A stretch of 64,000 bases of DNA, from assembly GCF_001375555.1 (NCBI RefSeq), contig NZ_CTDZ01000009.1, positions 248,001 through 312,000 of the forward strand, written 5' to 3'. This document shows, piece after piece, positions 20,206-28,250 of this stretch; position 1 is the stretch's first letter; each line of letters starts with the position of its first letter. The notes under the pieces are model-generated. The model had not been told where the DNA came from. It did not search any database and worked only from the letters and a program-made list of their open reading frames with translations. The position numbers were made by a program, and so were the translations under genes. This stretch comes from Numidum massiliense. Its GTDB lineage: Bacteria; Bacillota; Bacilli; Thermoactinomycetales; Novibacillaceae.

Positions 20206-20215
20206 ATAAAAGAAA

Positions 20216-20251
20216 ACCTCCAACTCCGGGCAAACGGAATTGAAGGTTTTG
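20216..20251. terminator. Bidirectional terminator between hutP and the peptide gene
   Basis: AAAACCTCCAACTCCG pairs with CGGAATTGAAGGTTTT around a short loop with two mismatches. T-runs lie on both strands, so it can end hutP transcription and that of the minus-strand regulator-peptide pair. Confidence 0.7.
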
Positions 20252-20275: not shown

Positions 20276-20371
20276 CTACATCACGATCGGATAAGCTTCG
20301 CCGAACAAATAATCGGGAGTCCGCAGCACGAACAGAATAGCGGTCACGATACCCACTAACATATTCGCCAT
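20276..20371 (-). CDS. Small hydrophobic peptide (31 aa), candidate signalling peptide of the RNPP type
   Basis: A 31-codon frame opening with MANMLVGIVTAILFVL, a short hydrophobic export-like segment, and ending RTPDYLFGEAYPIVM. Its ATG overlaps the TAA of the regulator gene by one base (TAATG), and AAGGAGGT lies eight bases upstream, among the best ribosome-binding sites in the window. Small frames of this design directly after an HTH-TPR gene are the hallmark of PlcR-PapR, NprR-NprX and Rap-Phr systems, in which the peptide is exported, trimmed and re-imported to bind the TPR domain. No homology to a named peptide is recognised. Function is inferred from architecture. Confidence 0.7.
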   Translation of the reverse strand: MANMLVGIVTAILFVLRTPDYLFGEAYPIVM

Positions 20372-21693
20372 TAAACGATACCTCCTTCCAGTAAGCTTTC
20401 TTTTTCAATCGTGTAAAGTTCATCCGTATACTTGCGGAACTTCTCCTTATCGCTTTTCTCGTACAGTTGGGCCAACCAGACAGTCGCTTCCCGCAGCTCT
20501 TTTGTAAAGGAGTGCCTTTTCGCAAAACTGTAGGCGGTTTCCAAGACGTCTTTGGCATTGTCTGTCTCTTTACACGTCAAATAAACTTTCGTCAAAGACA
20601 ATAGCGACTCCACTAAATACTTTTGGTTACCTGCCTTTTTGGAGAGAGCGATCGCCTCATGCAAGTACGTTTTCGCTTGGCTGTAATTGCCCCGCTTGGC
20701 GCAAATTTGTCCGAGAAACATATAGGATCGAATGAGAAACTCGTCTTCCAAATGTTTTTGCTTGATCGCGACCGACGTTTCAAAGCACAGTTCCGCCATG
20801 TCGTAGTTGCCGAGCAAGAAATAGTTCTCCCCGAGGTTGTTCCACACGATACCCGTCAGTTTTGGGTCATTCGTCAAGTGCAAAAACTTTTGCGCTTCCT
20901 TGAGGGATTCGAGTGCGTCGTTAATGTTGAAGTAGTTTTGTTGAATGATCGACTTTAAAATGTACACGTTAATCATGCTGGAATAGTCGCCGTTTTCTTT
21001 AGCGATGGCGAGTGCTTGCGACGTTAATCCGTACGCTTTATTCGCTTTCCCCATGCTTTCGTAAAACAACGCTAAATTGTACAGTTGACGCCCTTTTAAA
21101 TAGCGCCGTTCCCCGGTCGCCTCGAAGGTGTGTAACGCTTTGTTCGTGTGCTTAATGGCGTTGTTGTAGTTGCCTTGGTGGTAAGCGATGTAACCTAAGT
21201 TACCATAAGCTTCGGACACGAGGTTACTGTCCGACGGTACGTCGAACTCTTCGCAGCGGCGGATGACATTGTGAAATTCCCACTCAGCGCGGTCAAACTT
21301 TTTTTCGTACATAAACAGTTTGCCGCGGTACAGACTGAGGCGGCACGTATGCACGGCATTGCTCATTTTCTTCACTTCTTGCTCCAATGCTTTCAGACGC
21401 TCGTCGGCCTCGTCAAAACAGTTGTTCAAAATTAGGGCGTTCACTTGATTTAGTTTAACGGTAAAAAAGTCTTCGAGCTCGGATTCCTCCTGCTCGACAT
21501 CGAGCAACTCAGCTAAATTTATGCCAAGTTTGTGCAAAATGTAATCCAGCTTTTTTTGCGAGACGTTGCGGGTGATCCCGCGTTCGATATTGCTGATCGT
21601 CGGTACGGACAACGTCGGACCAGCTATATCTTGCAACGTTAACCCGAGTTCTTTTCGCTTCCGTCGAATGAGTTCTCCTACATGGTGCTTCAC
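20371..21693 (-). CDS. HTH-TPR transcriptional regulator (RNPP-like)
   Basis: 440 residues. Residues 1-62 form a Cro/CI-type helix-turn-helix (GELIRRKRKELGLTLQDIAG, VPTISNIERG). The remainder is a superhelix of tetratricopeptide-like repeats (for example AYGNLGYIAYHQGNYNNAIK, WNNLGENYFLLGNYDMAELC, MFLGQICAKRGNYSQAKTYL). This is the layout of peptide-binding RNPP regulators such as PlcR and NprR. GTG 21693 has AGGGGGA eight bases upstream; a TTG seven codons earlier is less well placed. The stop overlaps the start of a 31-codon peptide gene, so the two are translationally coupled. Target genes are unknown. Confidence 0.85.
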   Translation of the reverse strand: MKHHVGELIRRKRKELGLTLQDIAGPTLSVPTISNIERGITRNVSQKKLDYILHKLGINLAELLDVEQEESELEDFFTVKLNQVNALILNNCFDEADERLKALEQEVKKMSNAVHTCRLSLYRGKLFMYEKKFDRAEWEFHNVIRRCEEFDVPSDSNLVSEAYGNLGYIAYHQGNYNNAIKHTNKALHTFEATGERRYLKGRQLYNLALFYESMGKANKAYGLTSQALAIAKENGDYSSMINVYILKSIIQQNYFNINDALESLKEAQKFLHLTNDPKLTGIVWNNLGENYFLLGNYDMAELCFETSVAIKQKHLEDEFLIRSYMFLGQICAKRGNYSQAKTYLHEAIALSKKAGNQKYLVESLLSLTKVYLTCKETDNAKDVLETAYSFAKRHSFTKELREATVWLAQLYEKSDKEKFRKYTDELYTIEKESLLEGGIV

Positions 21694-21764: not shown

Positions 21765-21794
21765 ATTATAAAGAGAGATGCACCGTTTTGTAAA
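21765..21794 (-). promoter_or_regulatory. Promoter of the HTH-TPR regulator/peptide pair
   Basis: On the minus strand: -35 TTTACA (21789-21794), 18-base spacer, -10 TATAAT (21765-21770). About 70 bases separate the -10 from the GTG at 21693. The flanks are AT-rich. Confidence 0.65.
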
Positions 21795-22214
21795 CTAAAT
21801 TTTTAGCTAAATTAAAAGTGTCGCTGTGCTGAGGAGAGGGTTAGCCAATACTGACAAAAGATTGTATCCGTTTACAAGGCAGGTCGCGGCGTTACCCGTC
21901 TCGTAAACGAGCGACAATTCGCGCTGTACCTTTACAGTATGGCGGCTTCTTGTCATTTATTCCGATTTGTCGCTATCATTTTATAGATGGACAGAAAATA
22001 ATTGTCTTAACAGAGCACTTGCCTCATTAAACGAAAATAATTAAAACCTAATGAGTAGGATTAATTGTAACGAGGCAATTAAATACGGTACGTTAAATTT
22101 GTCTAAATGGTGACAATGAGTCGTCGTGGCGAGTTAAACTACAAAGCTGTCTGTTTTTTTGATAGGATAGTAATATATATGGAAAGTATGAGTTCGTGTG
22201 GAGGAGGATCATCA
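21795..22214 (+). promoter_or_regulatory. Intergenic region with a candidate promoter for the secreted coiled-coil gene
   Basis: About 420 bases with no supported gene. A promoter is readable at -35 TTGTCA (21950-21955), 18-base spacer, -10 TATCAT (21974-21979), giving a leader of about 230 bases. An inverted repeat CTCATTA (22023-22029) / TAATGAG (22049-22055) lies in that leader. No riboswitch class is recognised. Confidence 0.4.
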
Positions 22215-22931
22215 GTGCGGAAAATCGCCCTAATGTCTTTATTGCTACTTTTGCTTGCGACCCCCGTGTTTGCCGCCGAACAGAAAGCTTCGCAGCAGCA
22301 GGCGCAAGACTGGAACAAATTAGTGAAGGGGCAGTACACGAGTAAGTACAAGGGAGACGACAGCTACGACGAAAAATACGTTAGCATTAGCAATTGGACG
22401 CTCATCGATGTCGATGCGTCGCCGTTAAAGGCAGACGATCAGGAGCAAATTGAAAAATTAAACGGCGAAATAGAGAAGGAGCGGCCAAAGGAAGAAGTGG
22501 CTCAGAAAAAAGTCGACGACCTGAAGGAGCTCGCCCGGAAAAGCTCTGACGACAACGCAAAAAAAGACGTCGAGTCGCTCTTGAAGAAGACGGAGAAAGA
22601 TTTAGAGAAAGTCCAAAAAGAAATTAAAGGGAAAGAAGATCAAGTGAAAGAACTAGCGGAAAAGGAATATCCGCAGCAAGTTGCCGTGGCAGTCGCCGAT
22701 GTTAACTTCGGGGGGAACACGCTCGGCACGATGACGAAAAGCGAGTACGTGTTCGTCAGCCCAGCCGACAACCAACAGTTAGAAGATTCCGCGGGACAAC
22801 AGTTCGCTGAAGTCGCCGACTTCTTGAAGAAAAACCCGATCGAGGCGCAACAGTACCACCACGAAACGTTAGGATTTGGGATGCTCGTGCTCGCGCTCGG
22901 CGGCTGGTGGGTCGTCAACCGCAAGTTGTAA
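22215..22931 (+). CDS. Secreted, membrane-anchored coiled-coil protein, function unknown
   Basis: 238 residues, family not recognised. A clear signal peptide (MRKIALMSLLLLLLATPVFA, cleavage probably after residue 20) is followed by a Gln/Lys-rich stretch and a highly charged Glu/Lys coiled coil at about 72-152. A globular segment (PQQVAVAVADVNFGGNTLGT to about 215) comes next, and a C-terminal hydrophobic helix (220-234) ends in NRKL. So it is probably held outside the cell membrane by its C-terminus. GTG 22215 has AGGAGG seven bases upstream; the longer open frame to 22107 lacks such a site. It may have its own promoter and ends before the thrS leader. Confidence 0.7.
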   Translation: MRKIALMSLLLLLLATPVFAAEQKASQQQAQDWNKLVKGQYTSKYKGDDSYDEKYVSISNWTLIDVDASPLKADDQEQIEKLNGEIEKERPKEEVAQKKVDDLKELARKSSDDNAKKDVESLLKKTEKDLEKVQKEIKGKEDQVKELAEKEYPQQVAVAVADVNFGGNTLGTMTKSEYVFVSPADNQQLEDSAGQQFAEVADFLKKNPIEAQQYHHETLGFGMLVLALGGWWVVNRKL

Positions 22932-23145: not shown

Positions 23146-23173
23146 AGTGACTAATATGAAGAGCGATAGATGT

Positions 23174-23624
23174 AAGCGATGAGAAGGACAACGGTGTGGA
23201 AGCTCCGGTTGCCAGAGAGAGGGATCGCGGCTGCAAGTCCCTTAACACGGTTCCCACACTTACCCCCTTGGAGCTGCAGTAGGAAAAACTATGGCACTTC
23301 GCGTGAACGACTGCGCGGGGAGTCGCCTCGGCTCATGCGATCTGTCGCATTGGTACGGGTGACTGTCCGCTTTGGCAGACGGTGCCGGTCGCATCGACAG
23401 ACAGACGGTGCGATGAAGGTGGGGCGATGCACGTGGATCGTGCATGTAGTCTTGGCCAGCGACGCGCAAGTGCTTTCGATAGTGAGTAACTGCTGCCGGT
23501 GTAAACCGTTAGAGACGATTAGAGGGCTTGCCTGACCGTGACCGATGACGGTATGTTAGGCATGCTGAATAAGGGTGGAACCGCGACGCACACGTCCCTT
23601 GCCGGGATGTGGTGCGTTTTTTTA
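23174..23624 (+). promoter_or_regulatory. T-box leader of the first thrS gene, Thr (ACC) specifier
   Basis: The T-box AGGGTGGAACCGCG is at 23572-23585. It is followed by a terminator whose arms pair ACGCACACGTCCC with GGGATGTGGTGCGT before a T-run (to 23624). In stem I the specifier ACC (23262-23264) lies five bases before GGAGCTGCAG, the same spacing seen in the other leaders of this window. Uncharged tRNA-Thr should stabilise the antiterminator and switch on thrS. Confidence 0.9.
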
Positions 23625-23663
23625 TTTTTGAATCTAACGATCGTTTAAGGAGTGGAAAGACGA

Positions 23664-25592
23664 ATGAGTATTGATATACAACTGCCAGACGGTTCAGTCA
23701 AACAGTATGACTCCACGGTAACCGTCGCCGATGTGGCAGCTTCGATTAGTAAAAGCTTGGAAAAAAACGCGGTGGCCGGGGTCGTCGACGGAAAAGTGGT
23801 CGATTTATCCCGCACGATTGACGCGGATGCCGCCGTCAAAATAGTGACGACGAACGACGAAGAAGGGCTCGAAGTGCTCCGGCACAGCTGCGCCCACTTG
23901 ATGGCGCAAGCGATTAAGCGGCTCTATCCCGAGGTGAAACTCGGCATCGGTCCGGTGATCGAGAACGGATTTTATTACGACATCGCTTTGCCGGAACGAC
24001 TGACGCCGGAAGACTTGCCGAAGATCGAAAAAGAGATGCACAAAATCGTGAAAGAAAATTTGCGGATTACGCGTAAAGTCGTCTCGCGGGAAGAAGCGCT
24101 CGCGCTGTACGAGGAAGCGGGCGATGAGCTTAAATTGGAACTCATTCGCGAATTGCCGGACGAGGAAGAGATTACGATTTACGAGCAAGGCGAGTTTTAC
24201 GATTTGTGCCGCGGGCCACACGTGCCGTCGACGGGTAAGTTCAAGGCGTTTAAGTTACTCAGTATCGCTGGCGCGTACTGGCGCGGTGACAGCGACCGAC
24301 AAATGCTCACGCGCATCTACGGGACCGTCTGGCCGAAAAAATCACAGTTGGACGAGTACCTAAAACAACTAGAAGAGGCGAAAAAACGGGATCACCGCAA
24401 ACTCGGTAAGCAGTTAGGCATTTTTACGCTGTCGCAAGAAGTCGGGCAAGGATTGCCGCTCTGGTTGCCGAACGGGGCGACGGTTAGACGAGAGATCGAG
24501 CGGTACATCGTCGATTTGGAAGAGCGGCTCGGCTATAAGCACGTATATACGCCGCACTTGGCGAGTGTCGAATTGTACAAAATCTCCGGACACTGGGATC
24601 ATTATCAAGACGATATGTACCCGCCGATGAAGATGGACAACGAAGAGCTCGTACTGCGCCCGATGAACTGTCCACACCATATGATGATTTACCGTAACGA
24701 CATGCGCAGCTACCGCGATTTGCCGTTGCGCATCGCCGAGCTGGGGATGATGCACCGCCACGAAATGTCCGGTGCGCTCACTGGTTTGCAGCGCGTGCGG
24801 GCGATGACGCTCAACGATGCCCACATCTTTTGCCGTACGGAACAGTTAAAGGATGAATTCAAGCGCGTCGTGGAATTGATTGCGCACGTGTATCGCGATT
24901 TCGGCATCGAGGATTACTATTTCCGCTTGTCTTATCGCGATCCGGAGGATAAGGAAAAGTACGTACAAAACGACGAGATGTGGGAAAAGGCACAAGCGAT
25001 GTTGAAGGAAACGATGGACGAGATGGCGCTCGAGTACGTCGAGGCAGAAGGGGAAGCTGCTTTCTACGGGCCGAAACTCGATGTGCAAGTGCGGACGGCG
25101 CTCGGGAAAGACGAGACGCTGTCGACCGTGCAGTTGGACTTCCACTTGCCGAACAAGTTTGATCTCGAATATATCGGCGAAGACGGACAACCGCACCGCC
25201 CGGTCGTCATTCACCGCGGCATCGTCGGCACGATGGAACGGTTTGTCGCGTTTCTGCTCGAATATTACATCGGCAACTTACCCGTGTGGCTGTCGCCTGA
25301 ACAAGCGCGCGTTATTCCGGTCTCCGACCAATTTCTCGACTATGCGAACGGAGTGGAAGATTATTTGCGCGAAAAAGGCATTCGCGTCACGGTCGACCGC
25401 CGCGATGAAAAAATGGGGTATAAAATTCGCGAAGCGCAAATACAAAAAATCCCCTACATGTTGATCGTCGGCGGGGAAGAAGTGAAAAACCGTACGGTTG
25501 CGGTGCGGGAACGGTCGGAAGGGGACGTGGGGGCAAAAGCGTTGGAGCAGTTTGCCGCAGAAGTTGCGGCACAAATCGCACGGCACGAATAA
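23664..25592 (+). CDS. thrS: Threonyl-tRNA synthetase, first copy
   Basis: 642 residues: TGS domain (1-62), second additional/editing domain with His74 and His78 (HSCAHLMAQ) and [12 protein letters not shown], class II core (about 270-535) with the zinc cysteine in [11 protein letters not shown] and [16 protein letters not shown], and anticodon-binding domain (about 540-642). It charges tRNA-Thr with threonine. The core sequence ([27 protein letters not shown]) follows the B. subtilis ThrS type. ATG 23664 has AAGGAG 11 bases upstream; a GTG at 23652 overlaps that site. Controlled by the T-box leader just upstream. Confidence 0.95.
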
Positions 25593-25647: not shown

Positions 25648-26236
25648 CGATGAAAAGGACACGAGGACCAATGGATGGTTAGCAGAGAGAGGGTTCACCG
25701 GCTGCGAGACCCTTAATGAGAAATTGGCCCTTACCACCTTGGAGCTGCAGCAGGGAAAGCGTGAAAGTGCACACTTAGTGTACGGGGAAGTTGCACAGGG
25801 AAGGACCGTACGGGAAGGATGGCACAGACAGGATCGCACAGGGAAGTATCGGACGGGTGATCTATGCGCGAGTATGTGACCTACGCGAATTTTCCTTACA
25901 CCCGCAAGTAACTGCTGCCGGTTAAAGACCGTTAACCTTGTCAATGAAGGGCCTCCCATTCATACGATCGATATTAGGTTCACGATCTATATCAGGTTCA
26001 CTGTACAAAAATACGACCTGTATGAGGTTCGTCTACCGTACGAAAGTGAGATCCGTACGCTGTTAGTCGACTGTACGAATGTACGATTCGTATGAATGAC
26101 CTGACCGTACGTATGCGTGATCTGTATTGAATGCTCCTACCGGTACGTAAGCGAAGTGCGAGTATTGGTAAGGGTGGCCGAATTAGGGTGGAACCACGAC
26201 GCTCACTCGTCCCTAGAGGATGGTGGGCGTTTTTGT
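25648..26236 (+). promoter_or_regulatory. T-box leader of the second thrS gene, Thr (ACC) specifier, expanded
   Basis: T-box AGGGTGGAACCACG at 26185-26198, with the usual final GCG changed to ACG, followed by a terminator pairing ACGCTCACTCGTCC with GGATGGTGGGCGT and a T-run. The specifier ACC is at 25733-25735, five bases before GGAGCTGCAG. The stretch between stem I and the antiterminator is unusually long and contains two perfectly adjacent 18-base repeats (25964-25981, 25982-25999; 16 of 18 identical) and many CGTACGA-like words. No clear own promoter was found, so readthrough from the first thrS is possible. Confidence 0.85.
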
Positions 26237-26315: not shown

Positions 26316-28250
26316 ATGTATGTACACGTTACGTTGCCGGATGGGGCAGTTAAACAGTTTCGCTCCGGCACGACGGCAGGAGAAGTCGCTGCAGCGATCA
26401 GTAAAAGTTTGTCCAAGGTGGCAGTAGCGGCCAAAGTTAACGGCGAACTCGTCGATTTACAGACGAAGCTTACCCAAGATGCACACGTAGCGATTTTGAC
26501 GCTCAAAGACGAAGAAGGGTTGGAAGTGTACCGACATAGTACGACCCACTTGATGGCGCAAGCAGTGAAACGGCTGTACCCTGGGGCGAAGTTAGGTGTC
26601 GGTCCGGTCATCGCTGACGGTTTTTACTACGACATTGAGCTGCCACAGCATGTGACCGAGGAGGATTTACCGAAGATTGAACAGGAAATGGCAAACATTG
26701 TCCAAGAAGATTTGCCGATTGAGCGGCACGTCGTTTCCCGGGAGGAAGCACTCTGTTTGTACGAAGAAGCCGGTGATCCGCTCAAGCTGGAACTCATTCG
26801 CGACTTACCGGAAAAAGCGGTCATTACGATTTACCGGCAGGGAGAGTTTTTTGACTTGTGTCGCGGGCCGCATGTGCCGTCGACGGGGCGGATCAAGGCG
26901 TTTAAGCTGCTCAGTATTGCCGGTGCCTACTGGCGCGGCGACAGCGAGCGGCAAATGCTCACGCGCATCTACGGCACAGTCTGGCCGAAAAAAACGGATT
27001 TAGACGCGTATTTACAGCGACGGGAAGAGGTGAAAAAGCGCGACCACCGCAAACTCAGCCGTCAACTAAAGTTATTTATGTTTTCCGACCAGGCGCCGGG
27101 CATGCCGTTCTACTTGCCCAACGGGATGGTCTTGCGCAATGAGTTGGAACAATTATCTCGCGAACGACAAGCGCGTGTCGGATACGAGGAAGTGCTTACG
27201 CCCGTCATGATGAACCGCGGCCTGTGGGAGCAGTCGGGGCACTGGGACCACTACCGGGAAAATATGTATTTTACGGAAGTGGATGCGACAGCTTTTGCAC
27301 TGAAGCCGATGAACTGTCCGGGGCATATGCTCATTTTTAAAAATGAGCGGCGTTCGTACCGGGATTTGCCGCTGCGCTTGTCCGAGTTTGGCCACGTGCA
27401 CCGGCACGAACTGTCCGGGTCGCTCAACGGGATGCTGCGGGTACGCGGCTTTACGCAGGACGACGCGCACATTTTCGTCCGTCCGGATCAAATTGAGGCA
27501 GAAGTGGCCCACGCGATGGCGCTCGTCGACGATATTTACCGTGTGTTCGGCTTTCCGTACGCGATCGAACTGTCGACGCGGCCGGAAGATTCGATGGGCG
27601 ACGATGCGCTCTGGGAACAGGCGGAAACAGCCCTACAGCGCGTACTCGAGGCGCGCGGGGTCCTGTATCGCGTCAACGAAGGAGACGGTGCCTTCTACGG
27701 TCCGAAGATCGACTTTCATATCGAAGATGCGATCGGGCGTAGCCACCAATGTGCGACGATCCAGCTCGACTTCCAAATGCCGCAGAAGTTTGACCTCACA
27801 TACGTCGGGGAAGACAACGACCGCCACCGTCCCGTCGTCATTCACCGCGCCATTTTTGGCTCGCTTGACCGCTTTATCGGCATTTTGGTCGAGCATTACG
27901 GTGGGGCGTTTCCGACGTGGCTCGCACCGGTGCAAGTGAAAGCTTTGCCGATTGCCGACAACTACGCCGGTTTTGGGCAGGACGTTGTCAATGAGTTAAC
28001 AGCGGCAGGCATACGCGCCGAGTTGGATGCGCGTGACGAGAAGATCGGGTACAAAGTGCGCGAAGCAGAAATGCAAAAAGTGCCGTACATGCTCATCGTC
28101 GGCCAAGCGGAAGCGGCGAGCGGCACGGTCGCGGTACGGAAGCGCGGTGTCGGCGATCAGGGGGCGCTGCCGGTGGCTCAATTTGTCGCTGATGTGCGGG
28201 CGGAAGTTGCTACGCGGGGTGCAGTTGGCGTGAGCGTGACTGATGCTTAA
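26316..28250 (+). CDS. thrS: Threonyl-tRNA synthetase, second copy
   Basis: 644 residues with the same domain order as the first copy: TGS (1-62), editing domain (His74, His78 in HSTTHLMAQ), class II core with the zinc cysteine in LKPMNCPGHMLIFKNE, and anticodon-binding domain. The first 240 residues resemble copy one closely ([32 protein letters not shown]). The core does not: it reads SEFGHVHRHELSGSLNGMLR and FTQDDAHIF, the type widespread outside Bacillus. ATG 26316 follows AGGAGTGATGG. B. subtilis also has a second, starvation-induced enzyme, ThrZ; whether this copy plays that role is inference. No catalytic residue appears lost. Confidence 0.93.
   Translation: MYVHVTLPDGAVKQFRSGTTAGEVAAAISKSLSKVAVAAKVNGELVDLQTKLTQDAHVAILTLKDEEGLEVYRHSTTHLMAQAVKRLYPGAKLGVGPVIADGFYYDIELPQHVTEEDLPKIEQEMANIVQEDLPIERHVVSREEALCLYEEAGDPLKLELIRDLPEKAVITIYRQGEFFDLCRGPHVPSTGRIKAFKLLSIAGAYWRGDSERQMLTRIYGTVWPKKTDLDAYLQRREEVKKRDHRKLSRQLKLFMFSDQAPGMPFYLPNGMVLRNELEQLSRERQARVGYEEVLTPVMMNRGLWEQSGHWDHYRENMYFTEVDATAFALKPMNCPGHMLIFKNERRSYRDLPLRLSEFGHVHRHELSGSLNGMLRVRGFTQDDAHIFVRPDQIEAEVAHAMALVDDIYRVFGFPYAIELSTRPEDSMGDDALWEQAETALQRVLEARGVLYRVNEGDGAFYGPKIDFHIEDAIGRSHQCATIQLDFQMPQKFDLTYVGEDNDRHRPVVIHRAIFGSLDRFIGILVEHYGGAFPTWLAPVQVKALPIADNYAGFGQDVVNELTAAGIRAELDARDEKIGYKVREAEMQKVPYMLIVGQAEAASGTVAVRKRGVGDQGALPVAQFVADVRAEVATRGAVGVSVTDA

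Follow-up and report, generated by a model that had tools for sequence, protein, structure and literature searches.

We found that a 440-residue HTH-TPR regulator and a 31-codon frame joined to its stop codon, both on the minus strand of the window (the whole stretch of 64,000 nucleotides that was analysed), probably constitute an RRNPP-type cell-cell signalling unit, in which the regulator would act as receptor and the small frame would encode its cotranscribed pheromone precursor. Directly supported are the gene anatomy, family and fold, the conservation of the pair, the peptide core, the promoter and an upstream block, and the Opp-, EcsB- and M50-type families encoded by the genome. The features of the locus are:

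20371..21693, minus strand: HTH-TPR regulator, putative peptide receptor, 440 aa; GTG start at 21693, TAA stop at 20371
20276..20371, minus strand: putative pro-peptide frame MANMLVGIVTAILFVLRTPDYLFGEAYPIVM, 31 codons; core GEAYPIVM at residues 24-31
20380..20387, minus strand: ribosome-binding site AAGGAGGT of the peptide frame, within the last codons of the regulator
21765..21794, minus strand: promoter of the regulator-peptide unit, TTTACA-18-TATAAT (11/12), conserved in the ortholog
20213..20250, minus strand: intrinsic-terminator-like hairpin with a 16-bp stem and T-rich tail, downstream of the peptide frame

As described in the initial annotation, the regulator stop codon overlaps the ATG of the 31-codon frame in a TAATG, and the strong ribosome-binding site AAGGAGGT is spaced 8 nt upstream of this ATG. 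Promoter and hairpin flank the two genes. Their numbers in this region are not above those in shuffled sequence, so that the useful test for these elements is conservation.

The assignment of the upstream gene as an HTH-TPR regulator was confirmed by Pfam, which placed HTH_19 (4e-8) and HTH_3 (1.7e-7) at residues 6-69 and TPR_12 (6e-27), along with several other TPR families, in the C-terminal part; the protein thus has the at least five degenerate C-terminal TPRs in a superhelix by which RRNPP(A) receptors are defined. The AlphaFold2 model, calculated from an alignment of 37 family members, reached a mean pLDDT of 92.4 and consists of a helical HTH domain followed by paired helices, residues 60 to 437. 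It matched NprR (Z 28.3 over 348 residues, 17% identity), RapI (Z 27.6, 354 residues), the PlcR-PapR complex 2qfc (Z 20.6, 224 residues, 11% identity) as well as Rap-CSF and phage Rap-pheromone complexes, and several of the matched structures are peptide-bound. Eukaryotic LGN-type TPR proteins score as high as NprR, which means that the fold fits but is alone no proof of peptide-pheromone binding. LGN/Pins, first in rank in Foldseek/VIA, was rejected as kin of the regulator because TPR repeats match broadly. NprR was absent among the best 60 matches of a single-sequence search with the regulator (E <= 0.1) and ranked below LGN and designed TPRs in a profile search; judged by its sequence, the regulator lies outside the NprR subfamily.

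Several known systems share parts of this architecture. NprR-NprX of the Bacillus cereus group likewise combines an HTH plus nine-TPR-type receptor with an adjacent small peptide gene, and the active heptapeptide of NprX, SKPDIVG (PMC4970707), is of similar size to the window peptide and has a P..IV stretch, which is a resemblance only. Unlike in that system, the peptide and leader are different here, no neutral-protease gene is found in the neighbourhood, and there is no evidence that the window receptor has a Rap-like phosphatase function. In PlcR-PapR, too, a small peptide gene lies downstream of that for an HTH-TPR transcription regulator, but PlcR has five TPRs only. Rap-Phr has the TPR fold in common, and its downstream Sec-leader pro-peptide resembles those of the paralogs and the ortholog described below, whereas Rap carries a three-helix bundle in place of the DNA-binding HTH. 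In RapF, the conserved TPR asparagine Asn227 holds the peptide backbone (PMC3601957). Asn286 of the window receptor, whose correspondence to RapF Asn227 is putative, occurs in 13/13 receptors of this genome's clade and in 0/24 order-level relatives in alignment A2, while Asn206 is present in most of these relatives; the clade-specific Asn286 may mark another mode of holding the peptide.

Conservation of the receptor-peptide pair

A single ortholog, with a regulator 65% identical to that of the window, was found in G001, which was the one further genome of the taxonomic family among those searched; genome contigs, viral contigs, plasmids and phages yielded none beyond it. It sits in the same hutP-thrS slot, the gene order of which we take, from the sequences, to be nrdR, dnaB, dnaI, hutP, the peptide-regulator unit, a divergent exported protein and thrS; the identity of hutP is backed by Pfam (HutP). 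An origin in a mobile element was rejected on account of the syntenic core-genome position, the missing phage match and the absence of the ortholog from plasmids. The initial annotation had stated that promoter and terminator bracket exactly the two genes. Both elements are present, and the promoter has its counterpart in TTTACG-17-TATAAT of the ortholog; a counterpart of the terminator hairpin was looked for at the ortholog locus and not found. Since the hairpin is located between the convergent peptide gene and hutP, it may serve hutP too.

The ortholog peptide, MLKKTLLGFVVLALLSLPAVAFA-GESYPIGSHQPTVQSDN, is a canonical Sec-type pro-peptide that begins 1 nt past the regulator stop, and the GGAGG equivalent to AAGGAGGT sits in the terminal GG[IV] codons of the regulator. 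Aligning the peptides downstream of homologous HTH-TPR genes, the check that the initial annotation had proposed, gave a positive result: the core G-E-[AS]-Y-P-I occupies residues 24-29 of both frames, as GEAYPI in the window and GESYPI in the ortholog. Within this core, the codons for G and E carry synonymous changes, those for Y, P and I are identical and the third residue is Ala or Ser. Between the two peptides, the best six-residue identity is 5/6, a value that arose in 8 of 20000 shuffles, and 41 of 20000 shuffles that kept the hydrophobic/polar layout attained the gapped alignment score of the whole frames. Based on the shared core, its codons and the rarity of such matches among shuffles, the 31-codon frame is very probably a homologous pheromone-precursor gene and not a chance ORF.

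The own genome (3.76 Mb) encodes 14 near-full-length members of this receptor family, i.e., the receptor of the window and 13 paralogs, and at E <= 1e-30 at least one receptor was detected in the one other genome of the taxonomic family and in each of 40 further genomes of the order, compared with 0/19 genomes from other parts of the class. In a midpoint-rooted tree, the ortholog falls together with the own-genome members in a single, well-supported clade separate from the relatives. Counting stop-linked frames of 22-85 codons with a ribosome-binding site and a hydrophobic leader, we found them after 42 of 80 family receptors, while dinucleotide shuffling of the sequence downstream of the receptors predicted 2.15; when the DNA downstream of the window receptor was shuffled, such a frame arose in 0/40 cases. 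Together with the core shared by the ortholog, this excess lends good support to the reading of the locus as a regulator with a cotranscribed pro-peptide. That the 31 codons are a chance frame and no gene, as their shortness and the single available ortholog might suggest, is hardly credible given that position, ribosome-binding site, leader and core are conserved in the ortholog and that such frames are enriched across the family.

The pair is not unique: 10 of the 14 own-genome receptors carry a leader-bearing stop-linked frame, among them that of the window and L010, which has an in-frame TAG in the receptor gene. L007 is followed by a leader-like stretch after a CTG codon, and downstream of L003, L009 and L013 no recognisable peptide was seen; with at least three of 14 receptors lacking a peptide, orphaning does occur in the family. 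The pair had been called undescribed. RRNPP pairs are, however, a known kind, and RRNPP_detector has predicted receptor/pro-peptide pairs in silico and in bulk, with candidate clusters of pairs as here, some of them in Thermoactinomycetaceae (PMC10075063), so that the term can apply at most to this individual pair. Examples from the own genome are MKKIIASIVVIAILAIPLTSFA-GTRGPIVRSNNTVVEK, MKKIIASVVVIAVLVLPMTAFA-GTRAPIVMSHS... and MKKLLFAVVVVAVLSIPVSAFA-VDDAKPIVRANSTQQGK, in which the hyphens mark cuts according to our reading of the AxA rule; the PIVM word of the window peptide recurs in the paralogous peptide of L011. The genome thus appears to operate up to fourteen peptide-receptor channels in parallel, which would allow cross-talk, orphaning and specificity to be examined within a single organism. 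Receptor and mature-peptide distances were uncorrelated (Mantel r 0.10, ten pairs), a result that neither supports nor excludes the pairing.

Some receptor-peptide duplicates of the own genome are clustered or in tandem (L002/L005, C9 2711040-2714104; L007/L008, C9 2274268-2277160; L011/L018/L015, C9 2004484-2009178). Truncated copies occur in these clusters, and the interrupted L010 lies elsewhere; overall, the pattern suggests local expansion accompanied by decay. Among order-level relatives, several pro-peptides contain the putative signal in tandem copies, with repeats of the FPGPTSA type (L022), of NPGEY (L029) and of SEPGGL (L035, L083), and GDPIHT present twice (L079), and to judge from these repeats the pro-peptides look like multi-copy pheromone precursors.

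The atypical leader and the route of export

Export signals, that is, a basic N-region, a hydrophobic core and a signal-peptidase site, are seen in the pro-peptides of the ortholog and of most own-genome paralogs, and KK occurs in 56% of RRNPPA precursors (PMC9765709). The window leader, in contrast to the ortholog and paralogs, lacks two of these signals. Alone among 42 candidate peptides, it has no Lys or Arg in residues 1-8, and it contains no AxA signal-peptidase site; the KK of the ortholog aligns with AN, and RTPDYLF stands in place of its AFA site. The hydrophobic core is kept, an Arg follows the hydrophobic stretch, and the frame ends right after GEAYPIVM, whereas the ortholog and paralog peptides run on. 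That a frameshift or an assembly error had produced the odd leader was considered and rejected because no KK/AFA leader is present in the other frames. Ahead of the window ATG, the open frame reads KRKLTGRRYRL and has no usual start codon, so that a basic N-region would require non-standard initiation. Since a basic N-terminus and a cleavage site are missing, it is uncertain whether the window peptide is active in its present form.

Having no early Lys or Arg, no AxA and a stop directly after the core, the peptide may still work as a pheromone, exported in an altered way, or it may be decaying, with its receptor left an orphan; we favour the former. For decay, which we regard as rather unlikely, one would posit a canonical exported ancestor of which the window copy has lost the export and cleavage signals and the tail, leaving a receptor that is constitutive or answers another peptide. 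The loss of the KK pair, the AFA site and the tail relative to the ortholog fits this scenario, as do the three own-genome paralogs already without a peptide. Yet the frame has stayed open and retains its start codon, the strong ribosome-binding site, a long hydrophobic leader and the GExYPI core, and at such a distance free decay is not expected to retain the core beside synonymous changes.

The favoured working pheromone could have changed its route. Its precursor would once have been of the Sec/signal-peptidase kind still found in the sister genus and would now resemble SHP/ComS, being short, leader-poor and terminated exactly at the active core; in this specific form, we consider the proposal unlikely. 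Precursors of the SHP type are shorter and more hydrophobic and exit via PptAB (PMC9765709). Like the window peptide, those of the PptAB-exported SHP/Rgg and ComS/ComR systems are short, very hydrophobic and without a classical signal-peptidase site, but their receptors are streptococcal and of the Rgg type. The genome encodes an EcsB family protein, M50 proteases and several Opp-type binding proteins, which makes an alternative route at least possible. With a canonical leader in the ortholog and none in the window peptide, a change of export route of an RRNPP pheromone is directly testable, and, if this reading is true, both export modes could be compared in one orthologous system.

The same leader raises the question of whether the product is secreted at all. 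As a membrane microprotein, it would stay at the membrane or inside the producer, either for self-sensing or as an antagonist of the receptor. The charge pattern of the leader is in line with this, in that an Arg after the hydrophobic stretch favours a cytoplasmic C-terminus according to the positive-inside rule, and so is the missing cleavage motif. However, the Sec leaders of the ortholog and paralogs look cleavable, from which the ancestral product would be a secreted peptide, and a cut of the window peptide after GEA would still meet the -3/-1 rule and release the pentapeptide YPIVM. We therefore judge a membrane microprotein to be very unlikely.

Candidate operator, target gene and proposed circuit

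Two further features lie upstream of the regulator:

21882..21898, minus strand: 17-bp block CGGGTAACGCCGCGACC, candidate operator; the ortholog locus has the identical sequence
22215..22931, plus strand: divergent exported-protein gene, candidate target; neighbour of the ortholog as well, 44% identical

CGGGTAACGCCGCGACC is the longest word shared by intergenic regions that have otherwise diverged, and it lies 205 bp (window) and 203 bp (ortholog) ahead of the regulator start. Only one exact copy is present in either genome, that of the ortholog being framed by a CGGGT/ACCCG dyad. The block, which differs in sequence from the PlcR box, is the best operator candidate suggested by these comparisons. 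That it is a T-box or a different known RNA element was rejected, as the T-boxes shown by Rfam all precede the two thrS genes. The divergent protein is coiled-coil-like in its middle, carries a hydrophobic segment at the C-terminus and matches no Pfam family. It is present in 2 of 61 genomes, exactly the two with the receptor ortholog, and is the best candidate for a target, which two genomes cannot establish.

In our working model, the regulator would serve as a cytoplasmic DNA-binding receptor, and the 31-aa frame as the cotranscribed pheromone precursor, the translation of which is probably coupled to that of the regulator. The precursor would cross the membrane by Sec or by an EcsAB/PptAB-like ABC exporter, the latter being proposed because the leader is atypical, and proteases would trim it to about 5-8 residues containing YPIV(M). 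Re-imported by an Opp system, the mature peptide would bind to the TPR superhelix at its concave face and thereby change DNA binding by the HTH. The receptor would be likely to contact the DNA at the conserved 17-bp block in the divergent intergenic region, through which it may control its own unit and probably the divergent exported protein.

Beyond the divergent gene, two threonyl-tRNA-synthetase-like genes follow in tandem on the plus strand (23652-25592 and 26316-28250). Both have T-box-like leaders that score under the Rfam gathering cut-off, at 23170-23602 for the first, with an unusually long insert, and at 26092-26217 for the second.
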